Part shown: one piece after another, positions 2,893 to 64,000 of the stretch
Position numbering within the stretch: position 1 is the first letter of the stretch
How the letters are laid out: each line of letters opens with the position of its first letter
Assembly: GCA_031763025.1 (NCBI GenBank)
Contig: JASSKH010000030.1
Location: 6,563,495-6,627,494 of the forward strand
Source of the DNA: Macrocystis pyrifera
Taxonomy: Eukaryota; Sar; Phaeophyceae; Laminariales; Laminariaceae
Length of the DNA: 64,000 nt
Direction of reading: 5' to 3'
The notes under the pieces: generated by a model
What the model saw: only the letters and a program-made list of their open reading frames with translations
Databases searched by the model: none
What the model was told of the DNA's origin: nothing
Position numbers and translations under genes: made by a program

Positions 2893-3125
2893 AGGGGGCG
2901 GGGGGGGGGGGGGGGCCGTGCTCATTTGTTGCTCGTCTTAAGTCATTTGACCGTTGACCACACATCCCTTTCGAGACGGAGCACCGTTCCTGCTCCCAAT
3001 AGAGACACCTCCAACAGTTTGGGCGCTCATTGCGTGGTTTTCCATATGTTGCATGGAAACGTTTTGCGAATCAAATCCCCTTATGTTTCGCCGCCTGTGG
3101 CCACTATTTATCTCCTAGGGTGGGA
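2893..3125 (-). mobile_element. LINE 3' end with poly(C) tail
   Basis: About 230 bp matching the 3' end of the LINE seen at 54441-55206, including the end of its ORF and the 3' untranslated tip. On the sense strand it ends in ATGAGCACGG followed by a C-rich run. It is 5'-truncated. Confidence 0.75.

Positions 3126-3146: not shown

Positions 3147-3186
<40 letters not shown>
3147..3186. repeat. poly-G tract without recognisable element
   Basis: An uninterrupted run of 40 G. No SINE or LINE end lies beside it, so it may be an orphan retroposon tail or a slippage product. Confidence 0.8.
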
Positions 3187-4644: not shown

Positions 4645-5086
4645 TACTGTGTTTCAGTTGTTGAGAGTTTTGTTAACAGAACAAAAGAACAGGACTCAGA
4701 ATGCAAGAGTTTTAATATCAGAACAAACACAAGACACAAAACAACCAATGTGCCAGCCTTCGTGTGCGAAGAAGTTGTGGCCGGCGACGACAATTTTCAT
4801 GTTTTTTTGTTTTTGTTTTGGAATGTACTTTCGTATCTGGCAGGTAGATGCTGCTGTAGATGCTTGACGCACGGAAGGAAGGGAGAACATGAGTCATAAA
4901 AGACACAAAAGTTTCCCGGGGGCACAGACAGAACGGTTTCATGTGACGAACGCACACACAAGCGTAAACATGGTAAAAAAACACCGACTATTAGCAGCAG
5001 ACAGGACAACAACACAACATATTCATACCCTGGGATGACCTTTTCCGTGCCGGTTTGTTCTCTATTAATAAATAGTATATCAGGCG

Positions 5087-5087
<1 letters not shown>

Positions 5088-5125
<38 letters not shown>

Positions 5126-5571
5126 ACTCGATAGGAGAGATGTACTCGCTCTCATGCATGGCCGTAGTCGTATGACCATAGACCATCGCACCCCTACAAT
5201 GCCGGGACGGAGCACGTCGGGTTTTCACCGACCAGGCAGACATTGCTTGCACCAAGCGCGAAGCGCCGTGAGGTATCCGGCGAGTCGCATGAAGGGTGAG
5301 CTGCATCCTACTAAGAACCGCTTGTGAGGCGGACTTGCATATGGATGACAGCTTCAATGAGTTAGTTTAATTTCCGATGTAGCCACTTCCAGAGACAGCA
5401 TTGGGAGTACTATGTAACTGCCTCTTGGGTGCCTTACCTTGAACACTACGTGATACGATCAATTCCCTTGTGCAGAGTAAAGGTCTTTACCTCGCACAAA
5501 TGATCTAACTCGACGACCAGCTGTGGGCGACCGCCAAAAAAAAAAAAAAAAAACGGTACCCTGGATGTCTA
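5088..5571 (-). mobile_element. poly(C)-tailed SINE, long copy 1
   Basis: One of two long copies. On the - strand it starts near AGACATCCAGGGTACCG followed by a T run, then GGCGGTCGCCC, runs about 430 bp and ends in a 37-base C tract. It resembles the copy at 13290-13771 base for base over most of its length, including the first bases and the T run, which argues that this is the natural 5' end. The unit contains a roughly 80-codon open frame on the - strand (5357 downward) that is largely open in both long copies. I see no protein family in it, and it may be chance. Confidence 0.8.
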
Positions 5572-5782
5572 GCTCACGTAGTGAGCGGCATGTTTTACAG
5601 TGTCGTTGCCAACCGACGCCAACCCTGGGGGGGGGGGAACTGACGACGAAAAGATTAGTGTTTCCTTTTCGCAAGCTCCCTCCGACGGTTCGACTAAATC
5701 AGCCTTGGAAAAAACTACTATTAATAATAATCGTTTTACGAGGACGGGATGGAGAAAAATCGGCTGTCTGAAATTTCGCCCT

Positions 5783-13041: not shown

Positions 13042-13075
<34 letters not shown>

Positions 13076-13710
13076 GTACTCATTTGTTGCTTGCCTTAGT
13101 CATTTGACCATTGACCACGCATCCCTTTCGAGACGGAGCACCGTTCCTACTCCTAATAGAGACACCTCCAACAATTGGGCGCTCATTACGTTGTTTCCAT
13201 AAATTACATGGAAACTGTTTGCTATTCTTATCCCCTTCCTGTTTGGCCTCCTGTGGCCACCATCTATAGCGATCGTTTTTTTTTTTTTTGGGGGGGGTGT
13301 ACTCGATAGGAGAGATGTACTCGATCTCATGCATGGCCGTAGTCGTATGACCATAGACCCTCGCATCCCTACAATGCCCGGACGGAGCACGTCGAGTTTT
13401 GACCGACCAGGCAGACATTGCTTGCACCAAGCGCGAAGCGCCGTGAGGTGTCCGGCGAGTCGCATGAAGGGTGAGCTGCATCCTACTAAGAACCGCTTGT
13501 GAGGCGGACTTGCATATGGATGACAGCTTCAATGAGTTAGTTTAATTTCCGGTGTGGCCACTTCCAGAGACAGCAATGGGAGTACTATGTAACTGCCTCT
13601 TGGGTGCCCTACCTTGAACACTACGTGATACGATCAATTCCCTTGTGCAGAGTAAAGGTTCTTTACTTCGCACAAATGATCTAACTAGACGACCAGCTGT
13701 GGGCGACCGC

Positions 13711-13757
<47 letters not shown>

Positions 13758-13778
13758 GGTACCCTGGATGTCTTTTTT

Positions 13779-13825
<47 letters not shown>

Positions 13826-14942: not shown

Positions 14943-15011
<69 letters not shown>

Positions 15012-16966: not shown

Positions 16967-17032
<66 letters not shown>

Positions 17033-22800: not shown

Positions 22801-25800
22801 ATCGACGCTGTTGCTGACGTTGTCGTCGTTGTGTTGTCGCCGTTGCTGTCGCAAGTGTTGGTCTTGCTGTCGTCAGTGTTGGTCTTGCTGTTGTTGTTGA
22901 TGTTGTAGTTTGTAGTTGCTTTTGGTGGTGGTGTGGTGGTGTGGTGGCGGTCGTGGACGGCTCGCGACCTGTGTCTGGCGCGGATTTTTTGAGGCGAGCC
23001 GAGGTTTTTGCGTGAAGCGTGAGATCTGCGGTGCTTCGCGTGGTCGGTGCATGGGTGGTGGTGTACGACCCCGCCGGTACTGCGGAGCTGCTGCCGCCGC
23101 CGCCGCCACCATCGTTTTTCGGTGGAGTTGCTTGGCTCGCGCAGGGGGGCAGGGCGATGGTGGCGTTTTCCTACCGAGCCCGACTTAAGCCACCGAGTCG
23201 AAGCGAACCGAACCGAACTGACCCGAACCCAAGAAGCCAACCCAACCTAACCTAGCCCACCGGATCGAACTGAACCAAACCAAGAAAATAAACCTATATT
23301 TTTCACTGACTGTTTTCACTAAACGGCCAGCACGGTGGGGCCCTACTGTAGTTGCACTTTAACAACGATGACCATCCGATATACTTACTGCGGTCCTCTT
23401 ACCGACTGACCGACCGACTGACCGACCGACCGGCCGACCGACCAATCAACCTACCTACCTACCTGGCTGTACAGTAGGTAGGTAGGTAGGTGAACTTGAC
23501 TGGTGGGTCGATCGATTCATCGATTGATTGGTCGGTCGGTAGGTAGGGGACTACCTTCCTTCCAACATGACGACCAACAGACCGACCGACCGACGTACGC
23601 GTCCCAACCGTGGGTTGGTCTTTCTGTTGGTCGATAGGTAGGAAAGAAGGTAGTCCCCTACCTACCCTACCAACCGACCGACCGACTGATCTATCGACGG
23701 ACCGACCAACCAATTGACCTACCTATCTATCTACCTACGTGGCCACCAGTTTGATTGGTGGGTCGGTCGATCGACTGAATGACCGACCGACCAACTGACC
23801 GACCCACGCAACCGGACCAATCCAATCCAATCCAATCTAATCGAACGCTATCACCCGACTTGCAGGGCTACGCGATCAAGACGATCAAGAAGAGCAAGGT
23901 TAGCCGCATCGAGAGCCTCAGGCGCGAGATCGAGATCCTCCGATGCGTGGACCACCCCTGCATCATCAAGCTGTACGACGTCTATGAGGACGACCGTTTA
24001 TCCACCTTGTCACGGAGCTGTGCACTGGCGGCGAGCTGTTCGACCGCATCATACAAAAGACGGAGTCGGAGGAGGGCCGCTACAGCGAGAAGGATGCCAA
24101 GGTGTGTGGCGGTGATTTGGGGGGGAGGGTTGGTGGGTGAGGAGGGGGGGGGGGGGGGGGGGGGTGGTACTCGATCTCATGCATGGCCGTGGTCGTATGG
24201 ACATGGACCCTCGCATCCCTAAAATGCTGGGACGGAGCACGTCGGGTTTTCGCCGACCAGGCAGACATTTGCTTGCACCAAGCGCGAAACGCCCTGAGGT
24301 GTCCCACGTGTCGAGCATGAAGGGTGAGCTGGATCCTACAAAGAACCGCTTGTGGGGCGGACATGCCCATGGATGACAGCTGGGGGGGGGGGGGGGGGGG
24401 GGGGGTGAAAACTCCTGTGTGGTGGAAGTTACTCACGGTCCCGTCCAAGTCCACCCCATCCCGTATCATCCAATGCTAACATATCCTATCCCATCCTATA
24501 TCATATCATCCCATGCCGACCTATCCCATCCCATATCATCACACCCCATCCCATCCCGTCCCGTGTTAAACAGGTGGTCGTTGCGAGCATCCTGAGCGGG
24601 ATCGAGTACTGCCATAACGAGCACAACATCTGTCACCGCGACCTCAAGCCGGAGAACTTCCTGTTCAAGAGGCCCGACTCCGACACGGAGATCAAGGTGA
24701 CTATAAATTGGACTGCCCCGACGCGACCGCCTTTTGGTCGTCACCGTAGATCAGTCCGCCCGTGGGTTCTATAGCGTCGGTCCCGCGCTTTTTTTCCGTC
24801 GGTTGGTTCTTTCGTCCGTCTGTCCGACTGGTCCTGTTTTTGTTTTTCTCCTTGTTGTAGAAGTCCATCCCTGCCACGTTTTTTTTTTTTTTTTTTGGGG
24901 GGGGGGGGACGATTAGCTTATAAATTTGGAGTAGTTTTTTTTTTGTTTTTCTGTAGTTATAGGGGTAAGGCGACTAGATCGACGCGCGGTGACTGCCGTG
25001 GACGTCGGCGATCCGTCCGTTTCGTCAGTGCGTCGGTCGGTCGGTTCATCGATCCGTTTTGTCGGTCGGTTTGTCCGTCGGTCGGTCTTGTTGTGCCTCC
25101 CTTTTCTCGTGATCGTTTACAGACTGACGGGCGGGGACGGGCGGACGGATGGATTGTCCGTCGGTCGGTCCGTTGGTTCGTTCGTGCGCCGCCTGTTCCT
25201 GTCCCTGTTCTCATCGCGGTTCCTCGTTTTTTATGAAAGAATCATATACCACCAGTCGTACAGTCAACAAACTGAGAGGGTCTATTTCCGGATAGTCCGC
25301 AATAGTGTTACCATGGGCTGATATTTCGGCGAGAGTGGAGCTGTCAATATCAGAGTCCGAATGGGGATTATGTTTCCGGCCTGGGTGGCATTTTTTGTTG
25401 TTGGAACTCCTCTCGGCCTAGCAAACTCTTCCCGTAATGTGTCTGCAGTGGCTCGAACCGATCTCCCTCCCTATGATCCTACGACTACGGCCATGCATGA
25501 TATTGAGTACATCCCCGCCCACCCCCGGCGTTGTAGGGATGCGAGGGTATATTTGGTCATACGACTACGGCCATGCATGATAATGAGTATACCCCCCCTC
25601 GCCTCCCCCGCTTTTTGCACTCCCTCCCCCCACCCGCCTCCTTATTTTTGCACTCCCTCCTTCCCTTCCCCCCCCCTCCCCCCCCCCCCCCCCCCCCCCC
25701 CCCCACACACAAACACCTTTTTAGATCATCGACTTTGGCCTCTCGCGGTTCGAGGACATGCAAACCGCGATGACGACCCGCGTGGGCACTCCCTACTACA

Positions 25801-28800
25801 TCGCTCCCGAGGTTCTCTCTCGCAAGTATGACAAGGCCTGCGACCTCTGGTCCATCGGGGTCATCACCTACATCCTTCTGGCGGGCTACCCCCCCTTCTA
25901 CGGGGAGTCCGACCAGGAAATTTTCGCGTCGGTGCGGCACGGGTACTTCGACTTCCCTCCCCCGAATGGGACAGCATCTCCACCGAGGCCAAGGACTTCA
26001 TCACGCAGCTCCTCCAGAAGGACCCTTCCGCGAGGATGTCGGCGTCGCAGTCCATCCAGCACCGGTGGTTCGACACGCCTCCCGGAGGGCCGCTCGCGAC
26101 CGCGAACGCTGGCGCCGGGGGGGGCGCGGAGGCTGGGGGGAATGGGTCGGGGGACAAGCGGGATAAGGTTTGTACCTAGGGGTGTCGGATCTTGGGGTTT
26201 GGGGGGGGGGGGGGGGGGGGGGGAAGAGGGGAAGGGGGGGGGGCGGAGGGAGGGGGCAGGGGGAGGGAGGGAGAGAGGAGGGGAGGCTGTTTTGTCGGCG
26301 AACGCTCTCGAAGCCCGCGACTGCTTACACTTTTTTTTGTTTGCGTCTCTTCTCATTAGTCCAGGCATCCGCTCCATCAATCGATCAAATCCTAATCCAT
26401 CTTTGAGTCGGTTACCGTCCATGTCACAGCCTTGTTTTTTTTTTTTTGCTTAACGTATTCGTAGGGTGATCGGGTGAGACCTGACTCTTGTCCCCTTTTC
26501 TTTGCCCTCGCTTCTGGTGCTTTCGTTTTCCCGCTCTTCCCTCCATCCCTCCCTCCCACTTCCCTCCCTCTCCCCCCGCCCCTGTCCGCTTCCCCACCTA
26601 TCCCACCCCTGTCCCCGTCCTCGTCTCGCCTCCTTTCCGTTTCCACCGCCGCTCTGCTCTCCTTCCTGCCTGAAGGTGAGCATGCAGCGCATCAACCACA
26701 GGCTGCGAAGATTCGTGGGCATGAGCAAGCTGAAGAAGGTCGCCCTTAATGTCATCGCGCAGCAGCTGACTGAGGCGGAGATAGGGCACCTGCGTGGGGT
26801 GAGTTGGGTTGTTCCTGGGGGGCGGGGGAGGTGTACGTGGGGACAAGGTGGGGGGGGGGAGGGGGCGTACTCATTCGCTGCTTGCCTTAGTCGTTTGACC
26901 ATTGACCACGCATCCCTTTCGAGACGGAGCGCTGTTCCTACTCCTAACAGAGGCACCTCCAACAATTGGGCGGTCACTGTTTTAGGGGGGGGGGCGGGGC
27001 GGGGGGGGGTGTACTCGATAGGAGAGATGTACTCGATCTCATGCATGGCCGTAGTCGGGTGGCTGTAGGGCAAGAGGAAGGAAATTGTTGTGGTCATCGC
27101 GTCTTCTCTCTATCTTCTCCCCGGTTTATTCGTCTCGACCGTGTTCGGTTCGTCAGCTTTTATCCAGCTTTTCACAACGTTTATCAAACACAAATCTGCC
27201 CTAAAAAAACGTACGGTATATGAAGAAGAATATCTCATGGGGTATGCTCGATGTATGTAGGGCGTATATAGCACTCTGGTCGGAAATATGAGGACCGCTT
27301 ATACATTATTATGAATACCAAGCAGCCCTTGTATATGCGGCCAGAGTGGTATATCGGTACCCGGAGATATTTTTTTGGTGGGCGTACCGGCAGTTAAAAC
27401 ACCCGGCGTGTCGGGTGTGCGTACCGATATCGAGTTCGTGCGCGTGCACCGAATCTTCCTCGAAGACTCCGGTAGGGAATTGAGGCTGTGTACCGAACCA
27501 ACCTCACACGAAGGCTTTCGGCAAAGGGAACTACTAATGTTTAGTTCACCGAGCAATTAAATACCTTCGGTGTACTTTTGGTGCGTGCCCTTAATGATGG
27601 ACACACACCAGTTTTGAGGCCACGCGGGGTTTTTTTTCTTATCTCGCCGCGTTTTTTTTCTTATCTCGCCACGTTTTTTTTTTTTTTTTTTTTCACCGTC
27701 GAGGGGCGCCGTACAAAAAAGAGAAGGAAGTAGTTTGATGACCCGTCTTTTTTTTTTTTTTTTTCCCCCAACTTTTCTACTTTCTTTTTTCTTTCAAGAG
27801 CCATACGAAGGAGAGAAGGAAGTGTTTTGTATGGCGCGTTTTTTTTTTTTTTTTTTACTTCAATACTACAATAATTTTATTTTTTACACGCCAAATGTGA
27901 AAAGGGAAGGAAGTTGTGGTGACGCTTTTTTTTATCGCTTTTATTACCATTTTCATTTTTTTTACCGGTGAGGACGAATTGATGAAGGAGAAAAGGAGAA
28001 AAAGGAAGCCCTGAAGCCCCATTTTTCTTTCTCTTTTTTTTTTCTCTTGCATATATCTGGTGTGTTTTTTGTTTAAAAAAAGGTAGTCGGACGACTTTTT
28101 TTTTGCTTTTCGAGGGTGTGTATCATAACGATCGTGGTGTAATAGCGGCAGGCGTTCTCACCTGCAATTGTGTGCCTTTTGTAATTTTGTATTCGCTTTT
28201 GCGTTCACTTTTTTTTTTTGCGTACGCAGTTGGATGTGCATTTGCATGTGCAGGTGCTTTTTGTTTTCTCACGTTTGCTCCCGTTCCCTTCCCTTCCCTA
28301 CCCTACCCTACCCTTCCCTCACTGCGATGTTGCATGTTTATGTTGTGTTTTTTTTTGTATACAGCAGTAGTAGGGATTTTTTTCGTTGGTGTTTGTTATC
28401 AATTGCGTTTCGTGGCGATGTCTGACTCCCCCCCTCCCCTCCCCTCTCCTCCCCCCCCCCCCCCCCTGTTCCCCTTCCCAGGTGTTCGAACGCCTCGACG
28501 CGGAAGGAAACGGTGTGATCTCGGTGAACGAGCTAGAACAGGTGGTGCAGCATGACGGTTTCGAAAACCTCCAGGAGGACGTGGTGCGATTGCTGCAGGG
28601 CATAGATATCGACGGTAGCAATTCCCTCAACTACAGGGAGTTCCTGGCGGCCACGATGGAGGTACGCTGTCACTGGGATAGGGGACAGGGCGGGGATTCA
28701 GGGGATAGGGGGCAGGGGGCAGGGTGAATATCAGAGGGTAGAGGACAGGGGGAGATTCACGGGATAAGGGACACGGCGGGGATCAGGGGATAGGGGACAG

Positions 28801-29411
28801 GGAAGGGATTCAGGGGATAGGGGATTGGGCGGGGATTCAGGTCATAGGGGACAGGGTGAATATCCGAGGATAGAGGACGGGGCGGGGATTCACGGGATAG
28901 GGGACAGGGCGGGGACCAGGGGATAGGGGACAGGGAAGGGATTCAGGGGATAGGGGACAGGGCAGGGATTCAGGGGATAGGGGACAGGGCGGGGATTCAG
29001 GGGATAGGGGACAGGGCGGGTATCAGGGAATAGAGGACAAGAGGGGGAGGGGGGGGTGGGAGAAAGCCCGCCCTAGGTTGCTGGTCGAGGGCAGAGTTGT
29101 GTAGCATGCAATATTTAGGCGCGCAGGGGGGAGTGGGGGGGGAAATGATTCAGGAGGGACGGGAGAGTGGGGGGGGAAATGATTCAGGAGGGACGAGGGA
29201 GTGGGGGGTGTACTCACATCACGCATGGCCGTAGTGGTATGACCATCACCCTGGCATCCCTTCAATGCCGCGGCGGAGCGGGGGCGGGGAAGGAAGAGAG
29301 GGGAGGGGGAGGGGGGCGGGGTCGTCTTTTCCACCAGCGGCGCTTGCCCGCAGAGGTTGTGGTTGAGGACGGAGTTCACACGCGATTAGGAGAGGCGTGG
29401 AGGGGGGGGAA

Positions 29412-39291: not shown

Positions 39292-39560
39292 CGGGGTACT
39301 CGAAATCAAGCATGGCCGTAGTTGTACGACCACAGATCCTCGCATCCCTGCAATGCCGGGACGGAGCACGCCGGGGTATCACCGACCAGGTAGGCATTGC
39401 TTGCACCAAGAATGAAGCGCCGTGAGGTGTTCAGCGAGTTGCGTGAAGGGAAAGCTGCATCTTACGAAGAACCGCTCGCGTGTGAGGCGGATTTTCTTGC
39501 ATGGATGACCGCGACGAAATAATTGATTTTTGTTTTCTGGTGAGGACACTTCCAGCGGGG
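39292..39560 (-). mobile_element. poly(C)-family SINE, 270 bp
   Basis: Extends from the 3' end (tail reduced to CCCC) to the GGAAGTGTCCTCACCAG region. It is flanked by a further SINE end, so two copies stand in the same orientation. Confidence 0.75.
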
Positions 39561-40499: not shown

Positions 40500-40725
<226 letters not shown>

Positions 40726-51924: not shown

Positions 51925-54900
51925 CTGCATACTACCACCGGCAGCGTTTCACCGAGAGCTTACAAGACAGCAAGAATCGAACGGTCACATATCACGTCCC
52001 CCTTCGTACCGGCGGCAGCACATTACCGGGAGCATTTTTTCTGCGCCGACCAACAGGAGCTGTTGAGGTCTCACGCGAACACGGCAATCCTAGGCATACA
52101 TAGAGGATCAACGTCAAGCCAGGGCACGCGCGGAGGTGAACGTGTTGACGAGACATCGGGAGGAGAGACGGATAAGCCTTCGGCGACTGCGCTCGTTCCC
52201 TGCCTCGTGCACCGGGGGCATTCCAGCGCCGCAACATGGGAGCCGCCGTTGACCGTGCGCCGCTCTCACAGAGCGTCATCGGTGCACCCACCAATATTCG
52301 GGGACGGACACGCAAAAACCTGCCGCTCTGCAGGACGCCCGCCGGCGCACACAACCTACGGCCCAACCTACGGTACACGAGCGGCGGCGGCGAAAAAACG
52401 CAGCAACACCTCTACATCCCCCCGACCGGCATCGCAGCCAATGCCGACAACAAACTGTCTTGTTCACGGCCTCTCGAAGACCTATATATATATATAGCCT
52501 CTTGAGAAGAATCGTACCACCCTTATCTCAAAACAAACGGGCGTTTTCAATATGAACCTTCAAACGTTCCTTACATTTCCGGACAGAGCGGTAGTATATA
52601 CTATTACGGGGGGCCGTATTAAATAGGACCAAATTTTGTTAGTAAAAATAGGGAAATATGTAGGTTTTTGTGTGTACCGTAGGTGCTATTTACTATGGTC
52701 CCTCGTAATAGCTGTCACCACGAACTCGAGAAACAGGATGTTCGTAACCGGGATCGTCCATTTGTGCTGCGCTTCGCGGGTTTCGTCGGGAAAAGAAAGA
52801 ATCACCAGTCGTGGTTTACGGGGGACCATAGTTAACAGGACCTACGGTACACGCAAAAACCTATATATTTACCTATTTTTGCTGACAATATTTGGTCCTG
52901 TTCACTATGGACCCCCGTAATTGTAGTAGTAGTAGTAGTCAAGCGTTGAGAGTGACATCTTCCTAAGGTAGCTATTTTAGGCGCTCTGATTGGCTAAGGG
53001 TGTAATATATGCGGCTCAATCTACCAAGAGTTTTCCCAGCCACGGCATCCCGAGCCGGTGCCTAGAGTCTTCCCAAGGACAGCACCCAAGCACAGGCCGA
53101 GTCAACCTTGAGTCTTACCAAGCACAGCATCCAAGCACTGACCACTGGCACAAGCTTCGGGCTATAGTTAGGGTTGGGGTCGGTGGGTCGGTGGGTCGGC
53201 TTTAGGCGCCAAGCACAAAAACACCCGTAAAAATATTCACAATCAAGGCGTGACCACCCCTCGATTATAACGCGGCCATCGGTGGTAGATTCTAATTATA
53301 GGCTCCGGTGATCTCCAAAAGCAGTCTCTCCGATATTTTTTCCTTCGGAATAATAAAAAGACGCCTCAAAAACAAAACTTGCCAGGCTTCGTTCCCTGGT
53401 TCGCCCGCCCTAAGACGCCCTGCATGGCCAGCACCAAGTCCGCTTGGTCCGCCATGTCGACTCCCCCCACACCGAGGTTGTTTCGCGCCTTTTTCTCAGC
53501 TGCAGCCGGTGCCGCCGCTGCCGCGATGCCGTCCGGCCCACCGACATCGTCGCCGCCTCCACCCTCCTCGGCCGTGCTGGCCGCTCGCGAAGCGTCGTGC
53601 TTCATGCGGAGAGCCTTGAGCAGAGAGCCGTCGCTGAACTTGAGCAGGTTTTGGATGCCGAACAGCTCTCCCTCTTGGCCCTTCGCGCCCTGCGTTCATT
53701 TCAGGCCAAATGGCGGGGGGGAAAGGCAAGCGCGCGACGATAATCGCAAGCACCTTCATACAAAAATATTCGTTTTTTTTAAACATCACACTCAGCTGTG
53801 AGCTCGTTCAAACCCGTCGAAAATCGTATTGTGCAAGCTGCGTGCGATATATACTTCGATCGCGCGCGCGCTATTACACGAGGGTGTACGACCAAACGCA
53901 ACATTTTCTTTTTGGTCATCACGCAGAAGGCATCGTAGGGCATCGTATATAGGGCATCCAATCCACCAGCCAGTGGATGGGGTTTTCGCAGAGAGAGAAA
54001 AAAAAAAGGTGCCCCCTCCGCCCCCACCGGCCATAGCGACGCTTCGGCGAAATTCAAGGCCGCAGAGTGCCGCTGAACGATAGACAGGGACTGCTCGCGC
54101 GGGCTCTTCCAGCGGCACGACGCGCAAGGCGAGTTTCGTCGGCACCAAACACACGGCGCAGACGGGAGGAGGACAGACAGCAAGAAGCAAGCACAGCAGC
54201 GAACACAGGGGAGTGCGGCCGCTTCTCGAAGGAGCGGCGCCGTACCACTCCAGGCGGAAATACAAGGACCACTTCGTCTTCATATTAACGTATAAACGAA
54301 CCTTATATTTCCGGCCAGAGAGGTACACGGTAGGGTCTCCTCGAATGAGGAGCCGAGCCCCCAAACATATATACCTGGTATCACGAATAACCTATCGTAC
54401 CGCATTGGACTGTGTAATGGGCCTTTCGTTTTTTTTTTTTGGGGGGGGGGGGGGGGCGTACTCATTTGTTGCTTGCCTTAGTCATTTGACCATTGACCAC
54501 GCATCCCTTTCGAGACGGAGCACCGTTCCTACTCCTAATAGAGACACCTCCAACAATTGGGCGCTCATTACGTTGTTTCCATAAATTACATAGAAACTTT
54601 TTGCTAATCTTATCCCCTTCCTGTTTGGCCTCCTGTGGCCACCATCTATCTCCTAGGATAGCGATCGTTTTCTCGCTGCTATTCATTGTATCAAACTCCT
54701 CCATGTCACATTCGTCTATTTTCCTCATCTCCTCTTCTAACACATCCTGTTCCTCCTTGTATATTTCACATTCTCCTACTATGTGACTTCTACTCTCTAT
54801 TGCTTTGCCACACGGGCACATCTGTGCGTCTACTTCCTCCTCTTCCCGGCTACTGGTGTACCTCTTTCTTCTTTCTGCCAGGTCCCGCCAGGTCCCCTAC

Positions 54901-55352
54901 ACGAAAGCGCAGTTTCAGCGTTTTCGCGAAGTCCATTGGGCCATGCAAATACGTTTTCATTCCTATTCCTTCCCTCAATCCCCCGTATATCTCTAAGTGT
55001 TTTTCCGATTCCACCTTGTTTCTTAGCGCTAGCCTTTCCCTTCTTTCTATCCTTTCTTCTACTTCTGCCTTGTACCTCCCAAACTTCCCGGCGGACATCA
55101 TCTCTACTTGGTTTCCCCTAGATCCTTCCATACTTTCTCAACTTCGCCATCCCACCTTATTCCAGCTCGCCCTTTTGTTACATTTTCCCATACAGCTCTA
55201 TCAACTATGGGGGGGGGGGGGGGGGGGGGGCGAAACCCTTTTAGGACTGCAGTCCCGTTCTGGGGACATACTACTTGAAAATTGAGCGGTTAGTCTCCAA
55301 AACGGGACTGCCTGCAGTACTACAGCAAAACGGTTACAACCCTTTCTTTTAC

Positions 55353-55414
<62 letters not shown>

Positions 55415-58400
55415 CTTTTCTGTCCCCTAACCCTAACCCTAACCCTAAGGGGACCATAGAAAATAGGACCTACGGTACACACTAAAACCTATATATTTGC
55501 CTATTTTTACTAACAATATTTGGTCCTGTTTACTATGGTCCCCCGTAATACAAAGAATATCGTCAGACCACGTGGTGGTCAGGGCATCCAGGCTTGGACT
55601 CTACGAACACACTCTACATCCCCCTCCCTACCCCTACCTCTACCACAGCACGCGTCGAGTAGGGCCGCGCGCGCACCTGGACCGCGTTGAACTGGCGACG
55701 CCCACCCCGAGCCTGGTCGCCCATCGCCGCGCTGGTGATCTGCAGCTTGTAGATCTGACGCATGTAGCACATCTCCTCGATGGTCCCCTTAGACAGGAGC
55801 CGAAACACCGACACCTTTTCGCTCAGGCCAAAACCAGCAACAAAACAAAAACAAAACGAAAAGCGATATATAAAAAAAAAGTCACATCGACCAGAAACGA
55901 GGAAATAAGTATGAACAAAATCAGAAACACAATGAAGAGGGGGAGCGGCCTCCAATTAACCCTTTTGAGACTGCACCACATACCGTCATGAGGACAAACT
56001 ACAAACACTTACGTACAGTAGAATTTGAGTGTTTTTTTTTCCCCAGAACGAGAGTGCAGTCCCGAAAGGGACATGTCGATCCCCAAGCGCTTGGTCACAA
56101 ACCTAAACCTCAGTCAGGACAACCTAACCGTTCTGGAACTCCGCCCACCTTTGCGGGGGCCACAGACTGCTTTGGAGAAGAAGAGGAGGGTTTTACTTTT
56201 ACATCAAGAGAAGGGTTGGGTCAATCTCAAGGGCTTGGTCACAGAGGGTTGCTTACCACTTGCTTACTCGATAAAATGGTTGGCAACACACTTGTGTACG
56301 AGACGAGTACAATTAAGCCTAACCCTGTAAACCTAAGCCGATCAGAGCAACCCTAACCCTGACCCTAGGCCAATCAGACCAAATCTGCCTAGCCCTAAGC
56401 CTAAGCCAATGAGAGCAACCCTAACCCGGACCCTAAGCCAATCAAACCAAATCTGTCTAACTCTTAGCCTAAGCCAATCAGAGCAACCCATAACCCTGAC
56501 CTTAAGCCAATCAGACCAAATAACCCTAAGCCTCAGCAGAGCAACCCAAAACCCTGACCCTAAGCCAATCAGACCAAATATGTCATATAACCCTTAGCCG
56601 GAGCCGATCAGAGCAACCCAAAACCCTGACCCTAAGCCAATCAGACCAAATCTCCCTATAACCCTAACCCTAAGCCAAAGAGAGCAACCTTAACCCTGAC
56701 CCTGAGCCTGAGCCAATCAGACCAAACCTCGAACAAGCTGTGAGCTCTGCTGCTGGTCGCAGCCAATATCAGTCAGGTTCGCCCTCTCGCCTGACGACCG
56801 GCTCGCCACATCTAAACCCTAAACCCTAATTCAAGAGCGCGACGACACTCCGCATGCACTACATACGCATAGGGTGAAAACACAAATCGCGATAATAAGG
56901 GTGGTTCCAGGTCAAAGAGAGAGAGAGAGAGAGATAGAGTCAGTCGCAGTTGCGAACATCTTAGCACCGCCGTGCAATGGCATGAAACGGCGGTACCGCT
57001 TGCCTGTACGCACACATCTTTGAGAGAAGTCTTGCTGCAGCGAAAAAATAAAAGGCAACTCCCAACCGCGGAGCGCGGCACCACACAGCAGATAGACGAC
57101 GACGACGACGACGACTCCGGACACCTCCCTCCTCACCTTATTCCTCTGGCCGATGCGATACGCGCGATCCTGAGCCTGAAGCTCTGTCGCCGGGTTCCAG
57201 TTCACGTCGTACAACACCACCCTCGAGGCCGACACCAGGTTCAAGCCTTGACCACCGGCTGCGTCCGGAAACAGGTAGGTGGCAGCGCCCGGGGAGGGTC
57301 GGGAGGGCAGTAGGGCCGGCGGGCGAGAGGGGGCGTGGGATAGGGTTATATCTACCGTCACCGATGGGGCTGTCGGCATCAAAAGGTGAAAACGGCGGTT
57401 CAAATATGATTGTCCCCCACGCGTTGCTTCTTCCTGGCTCTCCGTACACAAGCCGATCCCGAAGGTGGCTGGGCTCACGACCACCAACCAGTCCTATCTA
57501 CGTACGAGTGGGGAATACGACGCTCCGAGCCTACTCGTAGAGCTCCTGAAGGGGTGCACTCGAAACAGAACAGAATCAACGCCAAGGGTGAAACGCGAAC
57601 ACAAAACACACGCACACACACACATGCCTCGCTCCGCGGAACGTTATCCAAAACAGTTTGCGGAACGTTCTCCAAAATAGTCTGCAGAACGTTCTCCAAA
57701 ATAGCCTGCGGAACGTTCTCCCACTCTCTTTTCGGTGCCGGCTTACCCCGTGTGCTGATCAGGAACACGAACACGGCGTGGCGATCGGAGTTGAACTCCT
57801 TTATCCGCGCCTGACGGTCCTTGTGAGAGGTGCTCCCGTCCAATCGACGGTACACGTACCCCTTGGCACCCACGAAGCTCTACCGACGTGTCCGCGACGC
57901 CGACGGGCGGAAAAATCGAAGACGAGAGGCGAGCGGAGCGGGGTTGGGGGCGGCGTACGATTTTGCTTCAGCTTTTTTTATTACGTTGTACTCGGTGCGC
58001 GTTATTTTCGTTTTTTTTCATTGGTTTTTTTCCCGAGGCGTTCTTTATTCTTCCACTCAGGAGGTGTTAGAGCCCCCCCTCCCGCCCGCCTGGTGCCCCC
58101 ACGGGCTCGAGTTGGAAGACGATTTAATGTGCGAGCAGCGGCATCCCGTGGCACGCGGATAACAATACGTCACCACGTCTCGTGCGTGCAGAAGTTCATG
58201 CTCAACTACCTCTTCGAGAAACGCGTGGCACTTCCCGCCGACAGGGAAAAGCCACGGCAGCAAGACTGTAGGCTGTGCACGTCTTGCGTTGTCTCTTGGC
58301 GTCCCTTCAGGTCGCGCAAAAACCCCCATCAACGAGCGCGAGAGTCGGGGCAAAAGCCGATGAGAATCGACGAGCAGGGAGTAGTATGCGAGCGCTGAAC

Positions 58401-59041
58401 TCCATGCTCGATGAAAATCAAGGCATGCGCCCGGGAGGGAAGAGGAAAGATTTACACCTGTGAACCACGGATGGTCCGTCCACAAGCGTAAATACAACCC
58501 CGTGCGAGTACATATTATGATGTACAGCTGAAAAGTCACGGGGTACGCCCAAAAAAACACAAAATTTCATTGAAAAAAAAAAAAAACACGGCATCCGAAG
58601 GAAAAGGTGTGCGAAGCCCCGCCGGTTCATCCTTGAGGGCGGTTTTTGCTGCTGTCCCATGCACATACGTCTCCCAACCATCGAGGGGGCGAGTTCGGGC
58701 AACACGCGCTGAAACAGATATTTAATGCATACTGGATACCGGTACGAAACTGCTGTCCATCATCCCGGAGTACCGCGTACCACTCTGCCTCTAAAGAGAA
58801 GGATTCGTTTCGACTATTGTGAAAAAAAAAAAACGTCTTGCTCGTTAGGGAGAGGGTTAGGGGGAGGATGCAGCTCTCACCCTTGTCATGCGACTCGCCG
58901 AACACCTCACGGCGCTTCGCAAAAGCTTGGTGCAACCAATCAGTGTCTGTCCGGTCGGTAAAACCCGACGTGTTCCGTCCCGGCATTGTAGGGATGCGAC
59001 GATCCTATGGCCATACGACTACGGCCATGCATAATATGAGT

Positions 59042-59082
<41 letters not shown>

Positions 59083-59492: not shown

Positions 59493-61328
59493 GGGGGGGG
59501 GGGGGAAGGCGACCACGACAACGACCAGCTTGAGGGCAGAGGCTGCGCCCTCTCAGGATCAAAACCTAAATTAGCCAGGCTGGTCGAGGAGGACGATCGG
59601 CGCGCCAAGGTCCCCCCCCCCCCCCCCCCCCCCCCCCCGACATGCTCCGTCCCAGCATTTGGGAGGGAGGCGAGGGTCTATGGTCATACGACTACGGCCA
59701 TGCATGAGATAGAGTACACCATTCCCATCGAGTACACACCCACCCTCCCCCCCCCCCCTGCCGGGAAAAGCGTGAAACAAACTCGATGCCACGGTACATA
59801 GCAGGAGTTAAAAAGACGCGCTTGTAACACAAAAAAAAAAAAAAAAAAGTATGGAAGAGTGGTAAAAGCTTAAACCCCTCAACCTTTTTTTGTCAGTACC
59901 GCACTGCTGTGCGGGAAAAACATACTACTCTGTCCCTAAACATAGAGAAAGTCTCGATTGAATATTAGTATACAAAATGTCCTTATTTTCAGGGACAGAG
60001 CGGTATATTCCACTCCGATTCCAAGGAATTTGTCCCCAGAACGGTGTCCCCCCGCTTCCGCGCTAGCTACCTGCGCCGCGTATGAACCAACCCTCTACGA
60101 AGCGCTCCGCCCGCGATGTTGCCTTTCCTTTGCACGACTCGCCGCCCAGAGATGGATCAGAATGTCACGAATACCCGGCCCAGCGAGCGACCGCCGTCCA
60201 GGTGCAAGCCACAGACCTGCCCCGTCTGTTCGCGTGTTCTACCAGTCTGCCAGGGACCGTTCCGTGCGGTTATCCACTCGGCACTCCCGCAAGCGCGATC
60301 AACCAAACAGCGCCATCTGCTGCTGCTGCTGCTGCTACCGTCGAAGTGAGCTACGTACTATTACGGGGGACCATAGTAAATAGGACCAAATGTTGTCAGT
60401 AAACATGGGGACACACATAGGTTTTGGTGCGTACCGTAGGTCCTATTTACTATGGTCCCCCGTAATACCGATACGTATTCTCAGCCAAAGAAATTGAACC
60501 ATAACGCATAATTCTCTCTACAACAACAAACCGCAGATCGTTATCATATCGGTTCCCGAACCCTCTATTATTACGGGGGTCTACAGTTAACAGGGCCTAT
60601 GGCATACATAAAAACCTACATATTAAGGTATTTTTACTAACAATATTTGGTCCTGTTTACTATGGTCCCCCGTAATAACAGCAATATTTTCGTTTTATTT
60701 TTTTCTTTTCTACATACTAATCGGAACTTAGTCGTGTCCGACATTTTTTTTCTTCAGTAGTGAAAGGGTTGAGCTTTGCCGGGAACACAAAACACCGTTC
60801 GGAATCCGACGTTAATATCAAACGGAGCGTATGTTTACGATCAGAGTGGGTATACTGTACCCTTATTTAGCCCGCATCACTCTGACCGTGAATATAAGCG
60901 CGCCATTTGGACTCTGGTGTTAATATTAAACGGAGCTGATATTCCCGATCAGTGGGTATACTACACCCTTACTTAGCCTACATCAATCTGACCGGGAATA
61001 TAATCACCATTTGGACTGCGATATTAATATCAAACGGAACTTATACTCCCGGTCAGAGTGGGTATACTGTACCCTTATTTAGCCTACATCACTCTGACCG
61101 GGAATATAATCACCGTTTGGACTCCGATATTAGTATTAAACGGAGCTTACATTCCCGGTCAGAGTGTTGTGTTTTTCCCACCCGTTGGAGGTGTAACAAA
61201 AAAAAAACAACAAAAAAAAAAACAACAACAACAGCAACAAGCCTCACCTCAAGGACGTCGAGCATGGTGGTGCTCCAGCTAAACACGAGAACTTTGTCAT
61301 GTGTGCTGTAAAACTTCCCCAGCAGAAC
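50340..61328 (-). CDS. ERCC6L2-like SNF2 helicase, C-terminal part (seven exons)
   Basis: Snf2-family DNA translocase; ERCC6L2 acts in DNA-damage response and end-joining repair. Exons on the - strand: 61328-61248, 57879-57747, 57258-57137, 55814-55677, 53689-53383, 51732-51626 and 51231-50340. Joined, they follow the RecA2 lobe of ERCC6L2 almost without gaps: [25 protein letters not shown] (motif IV/IVa region), [11 protein letters not shown] (motif V), [18 protein letters not shown] (motif VI), then the diagnostic [17 protein letters not shown] and [15 protein letters not shown]. About 295 residues are read before a long disordered Gly/Ser/Pro tail. The ATPase lobe 1 exons are not in 61329-64000 as far as I can see, so the gene should continue past the window. 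Two introns seem to use GC donors. Confidence 0.85.
50371..50410. repeat. poly-C and (CAC)n in last exon
   Basis: C22 followed by CACCAC repeats; on the gene strand this would code poly-Gly. Confidence 0.75.
51626..51732 (-). CDS. ERCC6L2-like exon 6 of the visible part
   Basis: Reads [20 protein letters not shown] then [15 protein letters not shown]. Acceptor GTTTGCAG; the donor appears to be AAAAG|GCAAGT. Phase matches both neighbours. Confidence 0.6.
51869..51923. repeat. poly-C tract in helicase intron
   Basis: About 55 C; on the left ACGTACG, not a SINE end. Confidence 0.85.
52535..52598. mobile_element. palindromic element family 3, right half
   Basis: CTTACATTTCCGGACAGAGC at right; the left side is decayed. 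It sits 5 bp from a TA-MITE. Confidence 0.45.
52604..52708. mobile_element. TA-MITE copy
   Basis: Complete copy with TA flanks. Confidence 0.83.
52816..52920. mobile_element. TA-MITE copy
   Basis: Complete copy; a short (GTA)n array follows. Confidence 0.83.
53383..53689 (-). CDS. ERCC6L2-like exon 5 of the visible part
   Basis: Starts [20 protein letters not shown], the ERCC6L2 signature beyond the helicase core, then Ala/Gly-rich sequence. Acceptor GAACGCAG. The end is best read at CCTG|GCAAGT (GC donor, phase 1), which joins the next exon in frame; otherwise it would stop at 53366. Confidence 0.8.
54241..54334. mobile_element. palindromic element, family 3
   Basis: ACCACTCCAGGCGGAAATAC at left, CTTATATTTCCGGCCAGAG at right. 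Confidence 0.55.
54441..55206 (-). mobile_element. LINE, C-terminal ORF and poly(C) tail
   Basis: Longest copy of the LINE, inserted in a helicase intron in the gene's own orientation. The ORF reads [19 protein letters not shown], then, after a frameshift, [17 protein letters not shown] and [17 protein letters not shown], a CxCx8Hx4C knuckle like those at the C-termini of LINE reverse transcriptases. It ends [21 protein letters not shown], stop (54462). The frameshift comes from a 10-bp tandem duplication (GGGACCTGGC, 54877-54897 region). The 3' tip is AATGAGTACG, then C16 and A12. The 5' end is truncated against another G tract (55207-55230). Confidence 0.8.
55231..55346. mobile_element. palindromic element, family 2
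   Basis: TTTTAGGACTGCAGTCCCG at left and AACGGGACTGCCTGCAGTAC at right. Confidence 0.65.
55352..55412. repeat. (TC)n microsatellite
   Basis: About 28 CT units with one TTT break. Confidence 0.9.
55426..55448. repeat. interstitial telomere-like repeat
   Basis: Four CCCTAA units, ending directly in the truncated left end of a MITE. Confidence 0.8.
55448..55548. mobile_element. TA-MITE, left end clipped
   Basis: Starts at GGGGACCATAG, without TTACG; the right end is complete with TA. Confidence 0.8.
55677..55814 (-). CDS. ERCC6L2-like exon 4 of the visible part
   Basis: Forty-six codons: [20 protein letters not shown] and [13 protein letters not shown], ending FNAVQ. This stretch separates ERCC6L2 from RAD54 and CSB relatives. 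Donor CAG|GTGCGC; the acceptor (GAAAAG) is weak in pyrimidines. Confidence 0.85.
55957..56070. mobile_element. palindromic element, family 2
   Basis: Decayed copy: CCCTTTTGAGACTGCA at left, TGCAGTCCCGAAAGGG at right. Confidence 0.5.
56300..56745. repeat. CCAAT-bearing minisatellite
   Basis: Five to six degenerate units of about 70 bp with CCCTAAGCCAATCAGACC and AGCCAATCAGAGCAACCC, also containing CCCTAA words. Confidence 0.85.
57137..57258 (-). CDS. ERCC6L2-like exon 3 of the visible part
   Basis: Codes for motif V and motif [22 protein letters not shown] and [13 protein letters not shown]. The acceptor CGGACGCAG and phase 1 join it to the STR of the preceding exon. Donor AAG|GTGAGG. Confidence 0.93.
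57630..57722. repeat. 22-bp tandem repeat
   Basis: Four units of GGAACGTTCTCCAAAATAG plus TCTGC, ending about 25 bp from the exon 2 donor. Confidence 0.85.
57747..57879 (-). CDS. ERCC6L2-like exon 2 of the visible part
   Basis: [20 protein letters not shown], then [18 protein letters not shown]; helicase C motif with the LDGST signature. Acceptor TCGGTAG, donor G|GTAAGC. Confidence 0.92.
58866..59082 (+). mobile_element. poly(C)-tailed SINE in helicase intron
   Basis: About 175 bp of SINE, 3' end ATAATATGAGTAC followed by C38. Opposite orientation to the host gene. Confidence 0.78.
59228..59312. mobile_element. palindromic element family 3, decayed
   Basis: CTACCACTCCAACAACAAGG and GGACCTTGTAATGAGGAAC-AGAG. 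Confidence 0.35.
59384..59444. mobile_element. palindromic element family 2, right half
   Basis: AATTCCAAGTGTTTTCGTCC and ACGTGGATGCAGTTCC; then a G run from 59448. Confidence 0.4.
59448..59505. repeat. poly-G tract
   Basis: G43, T, G13 with no SINE body beside it. Confidence 0.8.
59613..59760 (+). mobile_element. poly(C)-tailed SINE between C tracts
   Basis: C26 at left, about 90 bp of SINE 3' end, then a doubled GAGTACA end and C-rich tail. Confidence 0.7.
59877..60052. mobile_element. family 3 element nested in family 2 element
   Basis: CAACC...GTACCGCACTGC at left and TTTGTCCCCAGAACGG at right belong to family 2. Between them CTGTCCCTAAACAT ... TTTTCAGGGACAGAGCGG (about 59930-60006) is a family 3 copy. 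Confidence 0.5.
60361..60465. mobile_element. TA-MITE copy
   Basis: Complete copy with TA on both sides. Confidence 0.84.
60571..60675. mobile_element. TA-MITE copy
   Basis: Complete copy with TA on both sides. Confidence 0.84.
60795..61175. repeat. tandem array of family 3 element
   Basis: Three and a half units of about 105 bp, each with AATATCAAACGGAGC, CCGGTCAGAGTGGGTATACT and its inverse CACTCTGACCGGGAATATAA. Confidence 0.82.
61248..61328 (-). CDS. ERCC6L2-like exon 1 of the visible part
   Basis: [20 protein letters not shown] then TMLDVLE; start of helicase lobe 2 (motif IV). Acceptor TCGGCAG, donor GAG|GTGAGG. Confidence 0.88.
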
Positions 61329-63680: not shown

Positions 63681-63714
63681 ACACAACATACTTCGTGTGG
63701 GCAGGTTCGGGTCT

Positions 63715-64000
63715 GTAGATGATCTATATGTAGATGATCTATCTGTATATGATCTGTCTGTAGATGATCTGTCTGTAGATGATCTATCTGTAGATGATCT
63801 ATCTGTACATGATCTATCTGTAGATAATATATCTGTACATGATATATCTGTAGATGATCTATCTGTAGATGATTTATCTGTAGATGATCTATCTGTAGAT
63901 GATTTATCTGTAGATGATCTAGATGATCTGTAGATGATGGCGATCTATCTGTAGATGGTTTAGAGTATCTATCCGTAGATGATCTAGAGGATCTAGATGA
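63715..64000. repeat. 15-bp minisatellite
   Basis: Units of GTAGATGATCTATCT (reads VDDLS on the + strand), about 15 in a row, then degenerate GATCTAGATGATC, reaching the window end. Confidence 0.9.

Follow-up and report, generated by a model that had tools for sequence, protein, structure and literature searches.

The DNA analysed here, referred to as the window, is a stretch of 64,000 nucleotides from the kelp Macrocystis pyrifera (GenBank assembly GCA_031763025.1, contig JASSKH010000030.1, positions 6,563,495 to 6,627,494 of the forward strand). As the first-pass annotation had proposed, it holds four minus-strand copies of a LINE, at 2918-3119, 13076-13267, 26867-26976 and 54458-55210, and in all four the element ends in GAGYAC and a C tract comes next. 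Identities are given relative to the longest copy read, a near-complete one of 5521 nt (L009:2456-7976). The copy at 54458..55210 is 5'-truncated and 98% identical to positions 4768-5521 of this reference; it ends in a 66-nt 3' domain, GTGCTCC...GAGTAC (54458..54523), homologous to the 3' domain of a non-autonomous partner element, and then, after a single G at 54457, in a C16 tail (54441..54456). This copy had been described as finishing in poly(C), and the C16 is indeed present, but a run of 12 A (54429..54440) comes directly after it. On its 5' side lies a C22 run (55209..55230), presumably the target run. The copy at 13076..13267 is likewise 5'-truncated, with 97% identity and a C31 tail (13043..13073), while the short copy at 26867..26976 (93%) is followed immediately on its 3' side by an interrupted tail, C5 T C10. 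An older copy, at 2918..3119 (86%), has a C16 tail (2900..2915), and a C40 run (3147..3186) is found a short distance upstream of its 5' end. All of these tracts are given as read on the minus strand.

The partner, which is SINE-like, is present in the window five times. Two copies on the minus strand are at 5116..5553, with a C37 tail at 5088-5124, and at 13291..13760, where the LINE copy ending at 13043 lies directly downstream of the partner's C tract. Truncated copies are at 24167..24381 (minus, C21 tail at 24144-24164), 39296..39509 (minus) and 58865..59043 (plus, C39 tail at 59043-59081). C runs are by no means confined to the two elements: only 9 of the 54 runs of at least 12 C in the window come after a LINE or partner 3' domain and 45 do not, so most have another origin. 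Very long C tracts are found at 40558-40709 (152 nt), 14944-15011 (68) and 16968-17032 (65), and satellite-like tandem arrays at 63712-63921, 28675-29039, 56317-56708 and 60793-61166, with units of 15, 27, 68 and 106 bp. Runs of A stand at the 5' junctions of some truncated copies (A14 and A8 at 13276-13289 and 13773-13780 of the window, and about A16 at locus L046); no counterpart of these runs was seen on the 3' side.

The full element is 5,521 nt (about 5.5 kb) long, as judged from L009, a copy in which the reading frames are broken. Walking upstream, we found a shared far 5' end at query 855-859 in 18 of 46 rows; a start at L023:3660 was rejected, the true 5' end lying about 1.1 kb further upstream. 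Tandem repeats of about 127 bp, judged by self-matches, occupy part of the 5' region (L009:2667-3301). The 412-aa ORF of L009 encodes an APE-type endonuclease (PF03372, E 1.3e-11, above the cut-off; PF14529 on the same ORF was just below it at E 4.8e-6), and a PDB sequence search with this ORF returned no endonuclease match. A reverse transcriptase domain (PF00078, E 4e-33) was identified on an ORF at L028 and is also found among the frames of L009; the best PDB sequence matches of the reverse transcriptase ORF were the reverse transcriptase 8c8j, LINE-1 ORF2p (E 6e-21) and R2 (E 9e-20). The C-terminal ORF holds a C-x-C...H-x4-C motif, which is typical of LINEs. That the shared 3' end carries the last codons of a reverse transcriptase, as had been supposed, was borne out: the stop codon, the TGA of AAATGAGTAC, lies 4 nt before the last base of the element. 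Such a very short 3' UTR is a trait of the RTE clade.

Among 18 long copies the 5' starts differ while the 3' end is constant, a pattern of variable 5' truncation without terminal repeats. A DNA search with the 54441 stretch returned 2,726 first-look candidates, the best 40 of which, the window itself aside, match at 97-98%. Two 10-kb loci on different contigs, L018 and L019, are 99.6% identical and both filled, representing either a duplication or an uncollapsed haplotype. Of the features by which LINEs are recognized, the element has a reverse transcriptase, an APE-type endonuclease, variable 5' truncation and target-site duplications; an A tail, the usual tail of LINEs, was seen at none of the 59 sampled 3' ends. 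We regard it as probably a young, high-copy APE-type LINE with a non-autonomous partner, which is one part of an overall explanation to which, taken as a whole, we assign a probability of roughly 0.78.

What replaces the A tail is a tract of C. The exact last 20 nt of the LINE occur 4,400 times in the genome (2,203 and 2,197 on the two strands) and the reversed control pattern not once, so the shared end is not due to chance. The suspicion that most genomic copies might be without a C tract did not hold, as 2,831 of the 4,400 exact ends (1,392 and 1,439 on the two strands) are followed by any one base and C8; the 1,569 outside this pattern are represented only through a sample taken without regard to the tail, in which the pattern matches listed for contigs C125 and C126 gave 40 loci with 41 ends. 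At least 10 C were found in the first 30 nt after all 41 of these ends and after all 18 best-scoring ends, compared with 25% of random 30-mers drawn from the same element-rich loci; at least 15 C were found after 34 of the 41 and all 18, against a background of 4%. The weakest of the 41 sampled tails has a C run of only 4. The longest A run within the first 60 nt was 3 among the 41 ends and 5 among the 18. A run of 10 A within 30 nt of the element end was found at only 14 places genome-wide, every one of them after a C tract, and in seven of these, including the 54441 copy of the window, the A run adjoins the C run directly. Of 20 pairs of flanks, 17 had a recognized start and 3 did not; 12 of the 17 gave a 3' end, and all 12 tails begin with C. 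Thus the expectation that copies elsewhere would also end in C was confirmed, with 59 of 59 sampled 3' ends rich in C and without an A tail, and because copies elsewhere end in C too, our results support the view that the C tail belongs to the element itself.

Two explanations of this tail bear directly on these counts. One is that the C tracts are homopolymer artefacts of assembly or polishing. According to an excerpt of PMC10498591, the assembly was built on PacBio reads. Long homopolymers are error-prone. However, C follows the sense 3' end equally on both strands, A tracts almost never do, and exact short C8 runs recur across independent paralogues, which together make an artefact extremely improbable. 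The other is that poly(C) is added to the RNA without a template, either by a host nucleotidyltransferase or by the LINE reverse transcriptase. In its favour, most tails consist purely of C, no A tails occur, and among the 18 best-scoring copies, which are 97-98% identical, the longest C run within 100 nt ranges widely, from 12 to 57. The same picture would nevertheless result from slippage if the C tract were transcribed, some tails are interrupted close to the element (GTCCC, GCGCC, GCTCC), and a nuclear poly(C) polymerase is not known to us from algae; we therefore consider addition without a template unlikely.

C is also the rule on the 5' side of the copies, a feature that was absent from the first-pass annotation. 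The 5' junction was resolved in 46 copies; in 35 of these the last 30 nt of the 5' flank hold a run of C5 or longer, compared with 5.4% of random windows from the same element-rich loci, and in 25 a run of C8 or longer; runs of five of the other bases in the same 30 nt of the 46 flanks were found in none (G), one (A) and none (T). At 11 of the 46 insertions the C run is the tail of an earlier member of the family, as is the case for the 13043 copy of the window. Moreover, target duplications begin with the C run. A C-anchored duplication, that is, CCCC plus the next 4 nt common to both sides, was found in 15 of 54 pairs, whereas permutations gave a mean of 3.14 and a maximum of 9, and none of 2000 reached 15; this test was framed after seeing the junctions and a weak unanchored test, so that its significance is somewhat optimistic. 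The unanchored test, which counts shared words, separated duplications poorly from permutations, with 22 observed against a permuted mean of 12.7 and a maximum of 21 at threshold 5, and 10 against 6.6 and 14 at threshold 6. Since a C5 run is missing from the last 30 nt of 11 of the 46 flanks and 39 of the 54 pairs have no C-anchored duplication, the C-run target is either a preference or a rule obscured by the alteration of many junctions. Of the 15 full-length 5' junctions, five are paired with a 3' end. Extra C residues stand between the presumed duplication and the first base of the element in full-length copies at L109, L114 and L119; they may stem from template jumps, either to the C tail of another RNA or copy or to the target itself.

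These 5' runs give weight to the idea, raised together with the C tail, that the tracts were there before the element. In its pure form this idea holds that the element has specificity for its target and no tail of its own, inserting into poly(C) so that the 3' C is simply target. Most copies do have C runs on their 5' as well as their 3' side (35 of 46), many tracts in the window are unrelated to the family, with 45 of the 54 runs lacking a 3' domain upstream, and LINEs that target microsatellites are known, for example Togen at (TG)n (excerpt of PMC4640811). The empty sites speak against it. Two insertions lie in multicopy sequence. At L065, the flanks of the insertion, once joined, match all 40 scored places with no gap; nine of the ten empty sites read are AAGT-C8-TTCCA and one is interrupted, while in the filled locus the order is AAGT-C8-TTCCACG, element, C13-TTCCACG. 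At L015, the joined flanks again match at 40 of 40 scored places; the ten empty sites read comprise five of AAAT-C7-GTACCA, one with C6 and four interrupted, while the 3' side of the filled site has C19. This evidence is independent of the C-anchored duplication test. Because the empty sites have C8 and C7 and the filled ones C13 and C19, the target gives C and the element adds more. Hence the claim that the tracts were pre-existing targets stands insofar as C was there before insertion (C5 or longer in 35 of 46 flanks, and C-anchored duplications in 15 of 54 pairs) and fails insofar as insertion adds C beyond the target (C8 to C13, C7 to C19): the run serves as a target already in place and also as a tail, which the element lengthens.

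Other insertions behave alike, with C5 on the 5' side against C34 on the 3' side at L028 and C6 against C15 at L114/L105. Of 17 pairs, 13 were clean and four were dropped as ambiguous; in 11 of the 13 the 3' run exceeds the 5' run in length (Wilcoxon p 0.009, sign test p 0.022), and in the other two it is shorter (19 to 14 and 18 to 10). Pure target specificity is thus very unlikely. It might instead be supposed that the tail is short at insertion and grows later by replication slippage, the excess over the target being secondary. C runs can evidently grow, as long tracts exist apart from the element (C152 at 40558), and some of the difference in length between the 3' and 5' runs may have arisen after insertion, since C runs are unstable. 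However, at the same loci the 5' run stayed short (C5, C6, C7 and C8 against C34, C15, C19 and C13), and nine of the ten empty paralogues of the L065 site keep exactly C8, so that we give later growth as the source of the excess only a small chance.

The partner has in common with the LINE not only the tail. Its 3' domain is homologous to that of the LINE (38 aligned copies), as in LINE/SINE pairs of the stringent type, and its tail is likewise of C: one exact variant of the partner's 3' end, followed by ACn, occurs 794 times genome-wide, and after each of 29 partner 3' ends in the loci read there is C-rich sequence, as judged by eye. About 40 nt of the 5' tip of the LINE were also found with the partner, in seven matches of 86-93%; in the window a 39-nt stretch of this kind lies on the minus strand (5587-5625), beyond the partner copy at 5116..5553, and such matches were also observed at L010, L014, L017, L041 and L044. 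The same RNA fold is predicted for the 3' domains of both elements, with GUGCUC/GAGUAC closing just before the C tail, though the regular expression by which the sequences were chosen fixed this outer stem. The predicted folds are no more stable than those of shuffled sequences (z -0.8 and -0.3), and covariation, scored in 38 of 74 matches, was not significant, 28 of 500 shuffles reaching the same score and 79 of 500 the same percentage paired. A structured 3' RNA domain is therefore best treated as a suggestive lead.

Seven of 28 random copies whose 5' end was resolved (at L037, L041, L042, L044, L047, L055 and L066) measure just 61-66 nt, beginning at the 5' edge of the 3' domain; they might reflect either a preferred truncation point or the smallest unit that can still move. 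When such short copies were sought by pattern behind a C run, 332 matches were obtained on the reverse strand, each listed place appearing once, and a few of them contain more LINE sequence.

Our best reading of these observations, and the core of the explanation rated above, is that the scheme of LINE-1, with its TTTT/A nick and A tail, is mirrored here with C:G in place of A:T. The LINE RNA would end in a structured-looking domain of 66-75 nt with oligo(C) directly after it. The LINE endonuclease would nick the G-bearing strand at or within a stretch of C/G some five or more bases long, as the duplications begin with the C run and the empty sites have C7 and C8; the choice of strand is our deduction. 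The freed ...GGGG-3'OH would then pair with the RNA's C tail, priming reverse transcription, and the observed excess of the tract over its target could come from a transcribed C tract together with slippage on the C:G duplex. Copying would usually stop early, leaving the 5'-truncated copies with target duplications that we observe, and the new C tail could become a target for later copies, as seen at 11 of 46 insertions. The position of the nick within the C run, the 3' end of the RNA and the priming step are put forward as a proposal, drawn from the sequences of the insertions. The first-pass annotation had suspected a priming mode not yet described; the C tail does prove to be the element's own, but its use fits best with target-primed reverse transcription of the ordinary kind, in which C:G replaces A:T. 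It would be tempting to go further and propose a brown-algal LINE lineage with a dedicated poly(C) tail added without a template, which reads C:G complementarity at the nick and renews its own targets by leaving a fresh C run at every insertion; we consider this quite unlikely.

The comparison with mammalian LINE-1 is close. Both have an APE endonuclease and a reverse transcriptase, and both show 5' truncation. In both, duplications begin with the homopolymer of the tail and the target strand is complementary to the tail, and for LINE-1 nicking at a degenerate TTTT/A and priming with as few as four matching terminal bases have been described (excerpts of PMC3649969). They differ in that tail and target are C:G in the kelp and A:T in LINE-1. 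In contrast to the SINEs driven by L1, the kelp partner has a specific 3' domain in common with its LINE, while the repeated 3' tails of the I factor (TAA) and UnaL2 (TGTAA) are lengthened by template slippage, according to the excerpted text of PMC3747384. The kelp element resembles the latter two in having a repeated 3' tail that can lengthen by slippage and a SINE partner with a LINE-derived tail, but its repeat is a C homopolymer that also marks the insertion target. Like Togen at (TG)n, as portrayed in the excerpt of PMC4640811, it inserts at simple repeats; unlike Togen, it makes do with targets of only C5-C8 within ordinary or coding-like sequence, and its 3' tract is lengthened.

Within the brown algae, very abundant RTE-X LINEs and a non-autonomous element of about 600 bp with the same 3' end, RTEX-N1_Ec32, have been reported in Ectocarpus, and for the latter the authors were unable to trace the 5' region (main text of PMC12477816). 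By description, which is the basis of our comparison, this pair looks like the same kind as the kelp pair. In the main-text passages covered there is no statement on C tails, though the terminal motifs drawn in its Fig. 1C, or its supplement, might show one. No C-tailed LINE was found described in the titles and beginnings of abstracts listed from the open-licence literature; as the spelling poly(C) cannot be searched, this argues only weakly that no such description exists.

LINE-1 invariably combines its A tail with a T-rich nick site and the priming duplex, which makes it hard to tell which of the three is the driver. A lineage in which the whole set has been swapped to C:G is a natural test, and the swap suggests that the tail and the preference of the endonuclease evolve together through the pairing of primer and template. 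The LINE would also explain some of the poly(C) load of the kelp genome, although in the window only the 9 of 54 longer runs noted above are tied to it or its partner. For work on brown-algal genomes, the C end provides a simple diagnostic of the 3' ends of LINEs.
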